From: an uncultured Moraxella sp.
GTDB taxonomy: Bacteria; Pseudomonadota; Gammaproteobacteria; Pseudomonadales; Moraxellaceae
DNA length: 44,688 nucleotides
Reading direction: 5' to 3'
Assembly: GCF_945873075.1 (NCBI RefSeq)
Contig: NZ_CAMCBS010000018.1
Coordinates: 1 to 44,688 of the forward strand
The notes beneath the pieces were generated by a model. It worked only from the letters and a program-made list of their open reading frames with translations. It did no database searches and was not told the DNA's origin. Below, piece after piece: positions 6,933 to 12,199 of this stretch. The position numbers were made by a program, and so were the translations under genes. The first letter of the stretch is position 1, and each line of letters starts with the position of its first letter.

Positions 6933-7004
6933 GTTTGGTAGCTAAGTTTGGCAATTGTTTGTGGTCATTATTTGTGCTAATTATTTGATAATCAAGGGAA
7001 TGTG

Positions 7005-7511
7005 ATGGCGATAGCGCAACAAATCCGATTGGCAAGACGGGCTGATTTGCCACGACTGGTTGAGATTTTTAATGAAACGGTTGATGACAAAATCGCTCAT
7101 GCTAGCCTGACACCGCACACGGTTGATGGGCGGATGGCTTGGTTTGAAGCGCATAATGACGCCACTCGCCCCATCTATGTCGTCGTCGATGATGGGCAAA
7201 TCGTCGCTTGGGCAAGCTTTAGCGATTTGTACAGCTTGCCTGCTTATCACATCACCGCCGAGATTAGCCTGTATATCACCAAGCCATACCACCATCGTGG
7301 TATGGGCAAATCACTGCTGGCATTCATGCTATCGGTCGCACCAAAGCATGGCATTGATAATGTCGTGGCGCTGATTTTTCAGCATAATTTACCAAGTTTA
7401 TCCTTATTTGCGCAGTTTGATTTTGTGCAGTGGGGCGTACTGCCTAAGGTGTGTGATATGGATGGTTTTTTGGCGGATACGGTGATTATGGGGCGTAGGC
7501 TTTTGCCATAA
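7005..7511 (+). CDS. GNAT family N-acetyltransferase (phosphinothricin/L-amino acid acetyltransferase-like)
   Basis: A 168-residue acetyl-CoA-dependent N-acetyltransferase. The N-terminal IRLARRADLPRLVEIFNETV pattern and the acetyl-CoA loop HHRGMGKSLL (about 103-112) place it with the PAT/MnaT (YncA) group, whose members acetylate methionine sulfoximine, phosphinothricin or related amino acids. ATG 7005 is chosen over GTG 7002 because AGGGA at 6995-6999 is then 5 nt upstream. It lies 9 nt before pilM and may be cotranscribed, although no functional link to pili is evident. The substrate is unknown. Confidence 0.88.
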   Translation: MAIAQQIRLARRADLPRLVEIFNETVDDKIAHASLTPHTVDGRMAWFEAHNDATRPIYVVVDDGQIVAWASFSDLYSLPAYHITAEISLYITKPYHHRGMGKSLLAFMLSVAPKHGIDNVVALIFQHNLPSLSLFAQFDFVQWGVLPKVCDMDGFLADTVIMGRRLLP

Positions 7512-7520
7512 GGATATGCT

Positions 7521-9422
7521 GTGCCCTTGACTCGTCCATCCATACGCTTACCGAAGCTATCTATCTCCACTGTATTTGGTCGTGTGCCTACGACGCCTGT
7601 TGTAGGCATATCAATGAGTGATGCTGCTGTCACGGCTGCGCTGGTCGATGTGCATGCAGGACAGTATCATCTGCTAGACTATGCCATCGCACCTTGCCAT
7701 GATGCGCTCATGCATGGCAAAATCATTGACAAATCCGCACTGGCCGATGCCATCACGGCAGCCATAGACCAACTGCTCATCACACCAGTCTCTGCCATCA
7801 CGACTGTGGCCGATGATGCCATCATGCGTACACGCATCGAATTGCTTGGTCATCTGGACGATGATGAAGTGGAAGCGGCGATTTTGATCGATGCTGAGCG
7901 CTACATCGGACAGCCGATCGATGAAGTGTATGTTGATTTTTGTATTGATGGCTATGTGACGCATGGCTCAGTTGAGCGTACCCAAGTATGGCTCACCGTC
8001 GCACATCGTCAAGCGGTCGATGACTGTGCAGAAGTCTTGGCGATGGCAAATCTTGAGACGCAGTCGGTGGGCGTGTGGTCGCAATCAATGGCGCAAGCGG
8101 TACGAGCATTTTGCACCTTAGATGAGCCGACGGTTGCGGTGCTTGACATTCAGACGCATCAAACGCAGCTGCTGGTGCTAGATGAATCTGGGGTGGCATA
8201 CCGGACGACAGCGCTGTTTGGTACGCACACATTCACAGAAAGCCAGACGGCATCTGACCAGCTTATAGCGTCGCAGGCAGTATCGCATACGCCGTCGGAT
8301 GATGTTGATTCATCACCTCAAGCAGTATCCAAAACATCAGATGGCGATGGTCTTGATTTTTATCAGTTTTTGGCTCAATATCAAGCAAACAACCCAAATG
8401 ACTCCGCCCAACAGGTGCAGTCCGTGATGGATTTGGACTCATCGCTAGAAAGTGATGCAGTGGATAGCTTATCTTTGCAGCAGGCGGAGCAGCCAAATGC
8501 AGTACAGGATGAGTATCAAATCAGCTTTGGTGATGTATCCACAGGTGAGCTGCGACAAGTGGAGGAGCCTGTCCATCCGCAGACGGCGATGGATAGCATG
8601 CAGATCGATGCGATGTGCGATCGGCTTATGACCATGCTACATAGCTATCAGATACATCAAGCGCCATTACCATCACGACTACTGCTATCGGGTATCGATA
8701 CAGCTGTATGGGCAGGGCTTGATGAGCGATTAACCGAGAAGCTTGGCATAAAGGCAGTGTATGGAGTGCCAGATCCACAGCTGTATCATGCAGATCTTGG
8801 CACGGATGCACCACAGCTTTTGACGGCGATGGCATTATCGGCGGACATTCATGGTGTGAATCTTTTGCCATGGCGAGATCAAAAACGCCTAACGGATGCG
8901 GATAATTTTAAGAAAAAATTTATTATAGTCTTGTCCATCACAGCCATGATTCTAGGAGTGATTTATGCGCTGATGGCTTATCAGACGCACAAGCAAACTC
9001 AAGTTAATGCCATCATCACAGCACGCATCGAAGAGAATCAAACCAAGATCAACCAAATACACGCCATCGAACAAAAAATCAACGACACAAAATCCAAGCT
9101 TGCCGCCATCGATTTACTTGATCAAGATAATCAGCTACTCACCACTTGGCAGGCGCTACCAAACCTTGTGCCACAAGGTGTGTATCTGGATAGTATTCAA
9201 GAGAGCGCGGATGAAGTGAGCATCACTGGCATGAGCACAACTTCGGCACAGGTGTCGGCATTTGCCAGTTCGCTTGAGCTGTCTGGGGTGTATCAAGAAG
9301 TGCTTGTCACTTCATTACAAGATGCCAAGCAGGCGATGCGCTTTAGCATTTCAGCAAAGAAAATTATGCCTACAAATCAAGCATCCATCCAAGATGTACA
9401 GATGATTGGTAAGGATAACTAA
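7521..9422 (+). CDS. pilM-pilN: Fused type IV pilus assembly protein PilM-PilN
   Basis: A single 633-residue chain joining two normally separate inner-membrane platform proteins. Residues about 24-236 and 355-442 are PilM (actin-like, cytoplasmic). They are interrupted by a Ser/Asp/Gln-rich, probably disordered stretch (about 237-354). VNLLPWR at 446-452 is the N-terminal PilN signature that docks on PilM. A membrane helix (about 467-487), a coiled coil (about 490-530) and a periplasmic PilN fold (about 545-612) follow. The PilM phosphate and adenosine motifs are altered (DIQ at 209-211, SGI at 390-392). The GTG at 7521 has AAGGA 6 nt upstream; the ATG at 7516 hits a stop at once. pilO follows without a gap. 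Confidence 0.9.
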   Translation: MPLTRPSIRLPKLSISTVFGRVPTTPVVGISMSDAAVTAALVDVHAGQYHLLDYAIAPCHDALMHGKIIDKSALADAITAAIDQLLITPVSAITTVADDAIMRTRIELLGHLDDDEVEAAILIDAERYIGQPIDEVYVDFCIDGYVTHGSVERTQVWLTVAHRQAVDDCAEVLAMANLETQSVGVWSQSMAQAVRAFCTLDEPTVAVLDIQTHQTQLLVLDESGVAYRTTALFGTHTFTESQTASDQLIASQAVSHTPSDDVDSSPQAVSKTSDGDGLDFYQFLAQYQANNPNDSAQQVQSVMDLDSSLESDAVDSLSLQQAEQPNAVQDEYQISFGDVSTGELRQVEEPVHPQTAMDSMQIDAMCDRLMTMLHSYQIHQAPLPSRLLLSGIDTAVWAGLDERLTEKLGIKAVYGVPDPQLYHADLGTDAPQLLTAMALSADIHGVNLLPWRDQKRLTDADNFKKKFIIVLSITAMILGVIYALMAYQTHKQTQVNAIITARIEENQTKINQIHAIEQKINDTKSKLAAIDLLDQDNQLLTTWQALPNLVPQGVYLDSIQESADEVSITGMSTTSAQVSAFASSLELSGVYQEVLVTSLQDAKQAMRFSISAKKIMPTNQASIQDVQMIGKDN

Positions 9423-9425
9423 TTG

Positions 9426-10070
9426 ATGAAAATGGATAACCTTCGTTTATCATCGCAGAGATTTTGGCGTACGCTCAATCAAGTCAATCGCCATAATATC
9501 GGCAGTGCGCCATCGTCAGTACAGGCGGTTGTCATTGCGCTTGTGGTATGCGTGATGGCGATTGTGGTGTGGCTGGTGCTGATTTCCCCAAGCATGACCA
9601 AGCGCTCCGCACTGATGAGCCAAGAGCGAGTGCTAATCGATGACTTTGCACGCAGTTACCAACAACTGCGCTTGCTTGAGACCAGAAAATCTCAGCTCAC
9701 GGAAGAAAGTCAAGCACTCGATGCACGGCTTGCCCAAGTGCCAAAAAGCGCACCAATGACCGAGATTATCAGCATGATCCATACACAGGCCAGTCAAGCA
9801 AGCGTGCAGGTGCAAAGCGCAACAGTGCAGCCGATGGATAAGACGCAAGCGCACATCATCGAGCGTCCGATGATGGTGGTGGCGACGGGTGATTATCATG
9901 CGCTAGGGCGGTGGCTCGTTGCAATTGATAGTAGCGAGTATCTTTTGATGATGGGGGATTATGAGCTGATGGCAGATGGGGCGTCAAATCGCCTTAGGCT
10001 GACCATGCGTCTAGTGAGCTATCAAGCCAATAATCAGCCTGTCAGCACAGCACAGGAAGTCAAGCCATGA
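9426..10070 (+). CDS. pilO: Type IV pilus inner-membrane protein PilO
   Basis: Bitopic inner-membrane protein of 214 residues that pairs with PilN and links the motor platform to PilP/PilQ. It has a short cytoplasmic N-terminus, a membrane helix at about 32-52, a coiled coil (about 60-100) and a C-terminal ferredoxin-like domain. It starts 3 nt after the pilM-pilN stop. TTG 9423 is 7 nt and ATG 9426 is 10 nt from AAGGA (9411-9415), so the TTG cannot be excluded; I chose the ATG. Its end overlaps the start of pilP by 4 nt. Identification rests on topology, size and operon position as much as on sequence. Confidence 0.88.
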   Translation: MKMDNLRLSSQRFWRTLNQVNRHNIGSAPSSVQAVVIALVVCVMAIVVWLVLISPSMTKRSALMSQERVLIDDFARSYQQLRLLETRKSQLTEESQALDARLAQVPKSAPMTEIISMIHTQASQASVQVQSATVQPMDKTQAHIIERPMMVVATGDYHALGRWLVAIDSSEYLLMMGDYELMADGASNRLRLTMRLVSYQANNQPVSTAQEVKP

Positions 10071-10783
10071 TGCGCTATCTGTGGTTGATGGGTGCACTGC
10101 TATGCATGACTGCCTGTGGTCAAAGTGCTGAAGACATCGCTGATGCCAAGCTTGCCACTGTGATGGATGCGCCAAGTGTACCAACGGCTGTGCCACGACC
10201 ATCTGAGCCGATGCCGACAATCAGTTATGAGACTAACAAAGATCCATTTGTTAATCCCTATCGCCAAGTAAATACTGAACCGCCAACTGCTCAAGACACA
10301 TCCGCCCCATCGGATAAATCAGATGCCAAGTCCGATACAGGCGTGGATAATAAAACCAAGCCATCAAGCGATCAACCATCATCTGATGCAAGTAGGATAG
10401 CCAAACCACCACAAGAGCAGCCAAGCAAACCTGCAAGCGCCAATGCAAGTATCAATACAAGCCAAAAGCCTGCCGAATCAGCATGGTATCGTCATGCCAA
10501 GCGTGTCAAGATCGATACACAGCGCCCACGCCAACCGCTTGAGCTGTTTGAGCTTGGTCAGCTGAGTTATCAAGGGCGTATCAGTGATGGTGCACGCATG
10601 GTGGCGATCGTCCAAAGTCCCGATGGGCGTGTGCATCAGGTCGCTGTCGGTCACTATCTGGGGCGACATCATGGGCAGGTGGTGCGCATTGATGAGCGGG
10701 GTATTTATCTCGATGAAGCGGTACTTGCTGATGATGGGTATTACTATCATCGCACAGCCGAGCTTGGCTTTATGAAGAAATAA
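10067..10783 (+). CDS. pilP: Type IV pilus lipoprotein PilP
   Basis: Inner-membrane lipoprotein that connects PilN/PilO to the secretin PilQ. The signal peptide ends in a lipobox (MTACGQ; Cys at residue 17). A Pro/Ser/Lys-rich, probably unfolded linker spans about 35-150. The compact beta-sandwich PilP domain is C-terminal (about 160-238, from LELFELGQL to RTAELGF). At 238 residues it exceeds the usual length of about 170-180, the excess being linker. ATG overlaps the pilO stop (ATGA), which suggests translational coupling; ATG 10070 is an alternative. Confidence 0.92.
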   Translation: MMRYLWLMGALLCMTACGQSAEDIADAKLATVMDAPSVPTAVPRPSEPMPTISYETNKDPFVNPYRQVNTEPPTAQDTSAPSDKSDAKSDTGVDNKTKPSSDQPSSDASRIAKPPQEQPSKPASANASINTSQKPAESAWYRHAKRVKIDTQRPRQPLELFELGQLSYQGRISDGARMVAIVQSPDGRVHQVAVGHYLGRHHGQVVRIDERGIYLDEAVLADDGYYYHRTAELGFMKK

Positions 10784-10798
10784 TCGGAAGGTCATAAG

Positions 10799-12199
10799 AT
10801 GAAAAAACTATCCCCGTGGATGATGATTGGGCTGCTCGCGCTATCGACTGGCGTGCAGGCTGATACAGCTATCGTCGATACGCCTACGAGCGGTTATACA
10901 GGTAAGCCCATCAGCCTTGAGTTCGCTGATATGCCTGTGCGAGCGGTGCTTGATGTCTTGGCAAGCTTTACGGGGATTAATATCATCACCGATGATAGCG
11001 TCACGGGTAATATCACCATTCGTATGACCAATGTGCCTTGGGATCAGGCATTTGATGTAGTGATGCAGATGCGCAATTTATCCGTGCTAAAAAATGGTAA
11101 TGTCTGGATCGTCAGCTCAAAATCTATCCAAGCCAATCAGCCCATCGGCACAGAATACATCCGCCTGCATTATGCGATGGCAGAAGATGTGGCGGCGCTG
11201 ATCATGGGACAAAAGATTGAGCGGGGTAATATCAATCGCAGCAGCCGTAACGATGGCGCCAATCAGCTATCGCCCATGACTCGCTATCAGCAGACCGATG
11301 AGACTGTCGTGACGGTCGAGCGCGGCAGCCTATTATCCGAAAAAGGCACAGTTACAGTTGATAAGCGTACCAACACGCTCATCATCCAAGACACCGCCCA
11401 AAGTGTGGCAAATATCCGTGAGATGATTGCGCGGATTGACATTCCTGTCGAGCAGGTGATGATCGAAGCACGCATCATCTCGGCGAACGAAAGCTTTGGC
11501 AGACAGCTTGGTGTACGGCTTGGCGCACAAGCATCGGTGGGTAATGTACAAGTCTCAGGCTCCCAAAATTCGCTGTGGGCGATGCGCAATCAAGGCATGA
11601 ATGCAGGCGAGTATAATACCAATTATCAAGGGGTAAATCTGGGTGTAGCAGATGCAATGGGGCGCATTGCCTTTGGGCTGCTGAATTTGCCCGATGGTAT
11701 CTTGGATTTGGAATTATCTGCCATGCAAGCTGAAAACAAGGGCGAAGTTATCTCGACGCCAAAGGTGCTCACTGCTGACAAGCAGACCGCACGCATCTCA
11801 TCGGGCGTACAGATTCCTTATCAAGAGACAACTTATGCTGGCGCCACCACAACGAGCTTTAAAGAAGCGGTGCTACTACTTGAAGCAACACCGTCAATCA
11901 CCCCGGATGGCAAAATCACTATGAAATTAACCATCAAAAACGGCACACCGATCACCACGCTTGGTAACATCGCCATCCAAGAAGATGTCATCGAGACCAA
12001 TGTCATCGTCGAAAATGGTCAAACGGTCGTGCTTGGTGGCATCTATCGCCAAGCGGATAATAAGCAAGCCAATAAAGTACCAGTTCTGGGTGATGTACCT
12101 GTGCTTGGTCGGCTATTTCGACATGATGACAAGGGCAATGATAAGACTGAGCTGATGATTTTTATTACGCCAAAACTGGTCACGGCAACTGGTGGATGA
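10799..12199 (+). CDS. pilQ: Type IV pilus secretin PilQ (short form)
   Basis: Outer-membrane secretin through which the pilus exits, 466 residues. Signal peptide 1-21 (VQA cleavage site). An N0/STN domain (about 37-107) is followed by an N1/secretin_N domain (about 113-225) and the secretin domain (about 230-465), which includes GEVISTPKVLT, GVQIPYQE and the closing VPVLGDVPVLGRLFR motif. Most PilQ proteins exceed 600 residues because AMIN domains precede N0; here N0 begins right after the signal peptide. It is preceded by an AAGGTCATAAG ribosome region 15 nt after pilP. The PilQ assignment rests on the operon and the secretin motifs. Confidence 0.95.
   Translation: MKKLSPWMMIGLLALSTGVQADTAIVDTPTSGYTGKPISLEFADMPVRAVLDVLASFTGINIITDDSVTGNITIRMTNVPWDQAFDVVMQMRNLSVLKNGNVWIVSSKSIQANQPIGTEYIRLHYAMAEDVAALIMGQKIERGNINRSSRNDGANQLSPMTRYQQTDETVVTVERGSLLSEKGTVTVDKRTNTLIIQDTAQSVANIREMIARIDIPVEQVMIEARIISANESFGRQLGVRLGAQASVGNVQVSGSQNSLWAMRNQGMNAGEYNTNYQGVNLGVADAMGRIAFGLLNLPDGILDLELSAMQAENKGEVISTPKVLTADKQTARISSGVQIPYQETTYAGATTTSFKEAVLLLEATPSITPDGKITMKLTIKNGTPITTLGNIAIQEDVIETNVIVENGQTVVLGGIYRQADNKQANKVPVLGDVPVLGRLFRHDDKGNDKTELMIFITPKLVTATGG

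Follow-up and report, generated by a model that had tools for sequence, protein, structure and literature searches.

In type IVa pili, PilM and PilN are normally separate proteins, and their genes have the same operon position and encode the same domains as the fused gene for which they are the parents. According to the relevant passages of PMC6325625, residues 1–8 of Thermus PilN are held in a channel formed between two subdomains of PilM, and PilMN stimulates the extension ATPase about two-fold, which PilM alone or PilN alone does not. The same passages describe K26 of Thermus PilM as required for ATP binding, while the K26A protein still binds the extension ATPase and, together with PilN, still stimulates it. 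A joined form has been made in the laboratory: PDB entry 5eou is a chimera in which the C-terminus of Pseudomonas aeruginosa PilM is connected to the NLLPWR peptide of PilN, but it is engineered, contains an SSG linker and stops just past the peptide (372-residue chain). In type II secretion, GspL/EpsL/PulL is a single chain with an actin-like cytoplasmic half, one membrane helix and a periplasmic half that resembles PilN.

The DNA analysed here (the window, 44,688 nucleotides from an uncultured Moraxella sp.) contains a gene, pilMN (7521–9422, forward strand as are all features below), in which PilM and PilN form one polypeptide. It extends from a GTG at 7521 to a TAA at 9420–9422 and encodes 633 amino acids without a break, preceded by a probable ribosome-binding site, AAGGA (7510–7514; duplex of -6.0 kcal/mol). 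The first-pass annotation had described an uninterrupted frame of 633 codons in which a PilM half is followed by NLLPWR, a membrane helix and a PilN domain, and both statements are borne out by the translation and by the Pfam matches. PilM_2 (PF11104) matches residues 29–241 (7605–8243) with 83.6 bits against a cut-off of 27, covering only profile positions 1–218 of 340, and PilN (PF05137) matches the periplasmic domain, residues 543–613 (9147–9359), with 48.8 bits against a cut-off of 22.8. TIGR01175 scores 97.8 bits on the same protein, under its cut-off of 133. Between the two Pfam matches lie a predicted disordered insert (approximately residues 233–357, 8217–8591), the C-terminal part of the PilM half with a degenerate adenosine motif, LSGID (residues 358–441, 8592–8843), a short junction (residues 442–446, 8844–8858), the PilM-binding peptide NLLPWR (residues 447–452, 8859–8876) and a putative transmembrane helix (approximately residues 463–487, 8907–8981), the latter assigned by reading the sequence and contained within helix 450–531 of a low-confidence model.

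The gene is followed by pilO (9423–10070; PF04350, 46.6 bits), pilP (10067–10783; PF04351, 89.8 bits) and a short form of pilQ (10799–12199, 466 aa), and then by two genes which, by reading, we take for aroK and aroB. Directly 5' of pilMN, in the window's genome (G000) and in one of the other fused genomes introduced below (G218) but not in the remaining two (G226, G208), is a gene for a GNAT acetyltransferase (7002–7511 in the window), for which the top NCBIfam match is ArsN1 family A, under the cut-off of that family. As a separate observation, the window protein weakly matches NCBIfam NF045709, the PilM-like Amuc_1101 family, and the length of this model (608 positions) suggests that it may represent another single-chain PilM-PilN.

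The wider search for fused architectures that had been proposed was carried out on the 21 readable genomes of the genus; G212, which has no PilM, PilN, RpoB or PilB match, is excluded from every count. pilM and pilN are fused in four (G000, G218, G226 and G208), among them a single-contig genome of 2.34 Mb (G218), and are two separate genes in the other 17. All four fused chains contain both PilN traits, the NLLPWR peptide and the PF05137 domain. The fusion is thus confirmed as real and is common to four species that form one clade. Wherever the two genes are separate (17 of 17 pairs), pilN is read in a different frame from pilM, and for this reason the fusion cannot have arisen by loss of a stop codon alone. 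Three kinds of PilM can be distinguished in the genus: canonical (10 genomes, 350–362 aa as called), enlarged with a separate PilN (7 genomes, 421–507 aa), and fused (4 genomes, 603–633 aa in all).

The PilM half differs from canonical PilM where nucleotide would be bound. We used as a yardstick the 113 columns in which 34 or more of 35 canonical PilM sequences of the family agree. The ATP-site lysine of the GLDVSTTSVK motif, which aligns with K26 of Thermus PilM (2ych), is found in at least 34 of the 35 canonical proteins and in none of the seven enlarged or four fused ones. The Asp of this motif is also lost from both groups, being replaced by Glu in the enlarged proteins. The second Gly, the Leu and the Thr of GGxQLT are each missing from all four fused chains, as is the second Gly of the adenosine motif; the PilM part of 5eou, unlike the natural fusions, retains the canonical lysine and GGxQLTE. 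At canonical positions 110–136, the fraction of conserved columns that is retained is 0.74 in enlarged and 0.70 in fused proteins, against 0.15 and 0.08 at positions 231–290. As the former columns are kept while the site residues are lost, part of the PilM fold is strongly constrained and the nucleotide site is not. This loss bears on whether the contact between PilM and PilN was still regulated when the genes fused.

Enlarged and fused PilM have in common an insert which, in the alignment, lies between the phosphate-2 strands and the YxIxF segment. It is acidic, comprises 54–138 residues (boundaries set by hand) and contains an FxxF-type motif in all 11 proteins, represented in the window by DFYQFL (8355–8372), which is a possible docking motif. 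In an AlphaFold2 model of the window protein, ten-residue means of pLDDT are 23–33 across residues 231–350, values which, like the composition of the insert, fit disorder.

At the junction, the longest run that is invariant in the four fused chains is NLLPWR itself. It follows a LAL-like triplet of PilM after a short spacer, counted by hand, of 5 (G000), 11 (G218), 6 (G226) or 6 (G208) residues, compared with 8 for a plain end-to-end join of the canonical proteins and 11 in 5eou, where the junction reads LALRSFD-SSG-MARINLLPWREE. When a profile of the natural fusions (A1) is aligned with 5eou, it scores 119.8 bits, against 101.2 on PilM alone, and its second aligned stretch crosses the 5eou junction. 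Because NLLPWR is fully kept and a nearly end-to-end laboratory chimera has been crystallised, it is plausible that fusion has made the contact between PilM and PilN permanent; a fixed 1:1 ratio of the two would follow provided that the chain is not cut.

With natural spacers of 5–11 residues, NLLPWR could reach either the groove of its own chain or that of a neighbour. The AlphaFold2 model, computed from a three-sequence alignment (mean pLDDT 51.5, with residues 443–460 below 50), is too weak at the junction to distinguish the two. In a working fused chain NLLPWR may bind the adjacent subunit, a reading that we consider somewhat less likely than not; fusion would then tie the PilM subunits into a ring instead of holding each PilM to the PilN attached to it. 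Three of the four natural spacers (5, 6 and 6 residues) are shorter than that of 5eou, and a dodecameric PilM-PilN ring around PilB in Myxococcus is cited in the relevant part of PMC8389850. On the other hand, 5eou too has a short spacer, which G218 matches in length.

The assumption of an uncut chain leads to the question of whether one product or two are made from the open frame. The statement of the first-pass annotation that neither a stop nor a second ribosome site separates the halves holds fully for the stop and nearly so for the ribosome site, as an in-frame GTG within the junction (8856–8858), directly before NLLPWR, is preceded by a sequence that pairs weakly with the 16S tail (-5.0 kcal/mol). 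Candidate starts are also seen in G226, where a strong pairing (-8.3 kcal/mol) precedes a TTG, and in G208, where a pairing of -5.6 kcal/mol precedes a TTG nine codons upstream. Two proteins might thus be made, either by initiation within the frame close to NLLPWR or by cleavage of the chain, and PilM and PilN would persist as separate working parts. We consider this unlikely. The site in G226 would start translation within NLLPWR, and the 17 called separate pilN starts pair at -6.2 to -11.9 kcal/mol, whereas G218 offers no in-frame start pairing better than -2.8 kcal/mol in the stretch scanned, which reaches from 30 codons ahead of the N of NLLPWR to 3 codons beyond it. None of the four fused junctions has a strong and well-placed pilN ribosome site, those of G000 and G208 being weak and that of G226 lying inside the motif. 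Weak pairing does not in itself exclude a start, as the called pilM starts of the genus range from +1.2 to -11.4 kcal/mol, and some cutting or internal initiation of the chain is possible.

The rest of the pilus machine has also changed. In the 11 genomes with enlarged or fused PilM, PilQ has 433–500 aa against 694–716 aa in the 10 canonical genomes, i.e. it is about 250 residues shorter. Of three PilQ proteins scanned, that of the canonical genome G210 contains an AMIN domain while those of G206 and the window do not. Canonical genomes have two PilT-type genes close together (10 of 10), whereas a search of the 11 enlarged or fused genomes gave a single strong PilT-type match in each; no second strong match was found in these, the remainder being one 41-bit match in G206 and two below 20 bits in G214. 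The window's genome has PilB and one PilT-type ATPase. The PilB ORF of each fused genome was picked by its GPTGSGKT motif, and all four of these proteins retain GEIRD and two CxxC motifs.

Shortening of PilQ and absence of the second strong PilT-type gene might indicate that the machine is decaying and that the fusion is a neutral accident under weak selection. PilB distances relative to RpoB are in line with this, being far larger in the fused clade (G000, G218, G226, G208) than in the canonical species, and such fast evolution of pilus genes also fits relaxed selection. Yet every gene inspected is open, the NLLPWR peptide is intact in all four chains, and pN/pS stays under 1 in every part of pilMN. 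Between G000 and G218, dN/dS is 0.32 for pilMN, 0.16 for pilO, 0.30 for pilP, 0.11 for pilQ and 0.17 for pilB, compared with 0.05 for aroK, 0.10 for the acetyltransferase gene and 0.02 for rpoB; these ratios are rough, as dS is near saturation for most genes (1.86 for pilMN). Moraxella catarrhalis, for which 'pilMN' is listed as one gene (see below), is reported in the title of Luke et al. 2004 to require type IV pili for natural competence. Judged from these sequences, the pilus genes of the fused group are evolving fast but under constraint, and we regard decay as quite improbable. A stop or frameshift hidden by sequencing or assembly error, named beforehand in the first-pass annotation, is ruled out as a general explanation because four independent assemblies agree on the same open frame, the other three proteins being only 31–39% identical to that of the window.

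The ancestry of the fusion was examined in three trees. In the RpoB tree (18 genomes, G219, G221 and G225 having no RpoB match) the four fused genomes form one clade (94/99, and 95% of bootstrap trees), and the five species included that have an enlarged PilM and a separate PilN form another. The PilB tree, in which the G225 ORF is faulty and its branch very long, recovers the fused group (95/98), the enlarged group (100/99) and the two together (80/77). In the PilQ tree (19 of 21 rows, with three fused genomes, G000 and G224 being left out) a 100/99 branch places fused and enlarged genomes on one side. RpoB neither groups fused with enlarged genomes nor rejects such a grouping (AU p 0.15), so the order of loss followed by fusion leans on the PilQ and PilB trees.

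A resemblance to GspL is evident from the layout, but the Moraxella chains match PilM_2 and PilN, keep NLLPWR and are encoded in a pilMN-O-P-Q cluster. No match to T2SSL (PF05134) or GspL_C was obtained for the four fused proteins at E-values up to 10, nor to PF05134 in the window's genome. Membership in the GspL family was rejected on these grounds, together with a pilO-pilP-pilQ context that is not that of type II secretion. By analogy, the fused chain may work like GspL without being one.

Other single chains were sought in two broader samples; these searches cover the matches listed, and weaker fusions may be missed. Among the matches listed for 274 genomes of the class, the genomes with PilN frames of at least 500 codons (G407, G480, G520) have separate pilM and pilN genes, as have two further genomes that were read (G559, G593). 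For 140 genomes of the phylum, nine listed frames of at least 500 codons besides that of the window (L169–L177) were all read. Four are single ORFs of 504–576 aa with a PilN match (L169, L173, L174 and, under the cut-off, L175), three of which also have a weak PilM match (none in L175). One has PilN alone in a profile scan (L171), and the remaining four (L170, L172, L176, L177) are taken, by reading, for GC-rich frame artefacts or GspL-like proteins. A scan of named genomes with the window protein gave no match.

One of these chains, L169 (2859–4373, 504 aa), which we take to be an MshI-type protein of an MSHA-like pilus, has a weak PilM match and a PilN domain in one frame. It adjoins proteins read as a secretin, a PilO-like or PilO-sized protein and Ssb, which suggests that the cluster is probably MSHA-like with MshI. 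It differs from the Moraxella chains in having VNLYTDELRP in place of NLLPWR and in lying in a different gene cluster. The window protein shows no similarity to L169 beyond chance (BLASTP E 0.37), and a profile of the fused chains none to L174 (hhalign probability 2.7%); these values and the different gene context led us to reject membership in the MshI family. Since L169 and L174 are dissimilar to it, the Moraxella fusion seems to have reached a known layout on its own, inside a PilMNOPQ operon.

The one-chain layout, in GspL and in the MSHA-like chain, is thus known already, and so is the name 'pilMN'. The relevant text of PMC9448378 names 33 genes that 70 M. catarrhalis isolates have in common and lists 'pilMN' among them as one gene. 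This suggests that M. catarrhalis probably carries the same fused gene, so that the main lineage has it and annotators named it. In that text, there is no comment on a fusion, a mechanism, the ATP site or the sequence. The first-pass annotation did not recall any description, and we found none of a PilM-PilN fusion as such in searches of the open-licence PMC literature, so the claim stands for an account of the fusion and falls short for the listing of the gene.

We favour, as the probable explanation, that pilMN encodes a nucleotide-independent, permanently PilN-bound coupling protein resembling GspL, in which loss of the ATP site and gain of the insert preceded fusion. The protein would be a bitopic chain, its cytoplasmic PilM half joined nearly without linker to NLLPWR, the membrane helix and the PilN periplasmic domain. 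The NLLPWR segment would constantly occupy the groove of a PilM half, either its own or that of a neighbour. PilM would thus always be bound to PilN, the state that stimulates the extension ATPase in Thermus, and PilMN could relay the movement of the motor from PilB to PilO, PilP and PilQ without nucleotide control in PilM. We place loss of the ATP site and gain of the insert in the ancestor of the 11 species, with fusion following in four, because the enlarged group has the loss without the fusion; this order depends on fused and enlarged proteins sharing an ancestor. A GspL-like layout, and probably a GspL-like action, would so have arisen a separate time, inside an operon for type IVa pili.

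More tentatively, the base of a type IVa pilus may have been remodelled in steps to the GspL plan: nucleotide loss in PilM and acquisition of a disordered arm with the FxxF motif, a smaller secretin and disappearance of the second retraction-type ATPase would have come before end-to-end fusion, leaving PilB constitutively coupled to a PilNOP cage. The group would then be a natural experiment showing that pilus assembly can do without control by nucleotide of the contact between PilM and PilN.

To our knowledge, the role of ATP in PilM, and whether PilM has to release PilN in the pilus cycle, are unsettled in the field. The decayed pocket and the covalent join would make both questions testable against relatives of the same genus that have canonical PilM and a separate PilN, and they plausibly illustrate how a single chain of the GspL type can arise from a pilus operon.
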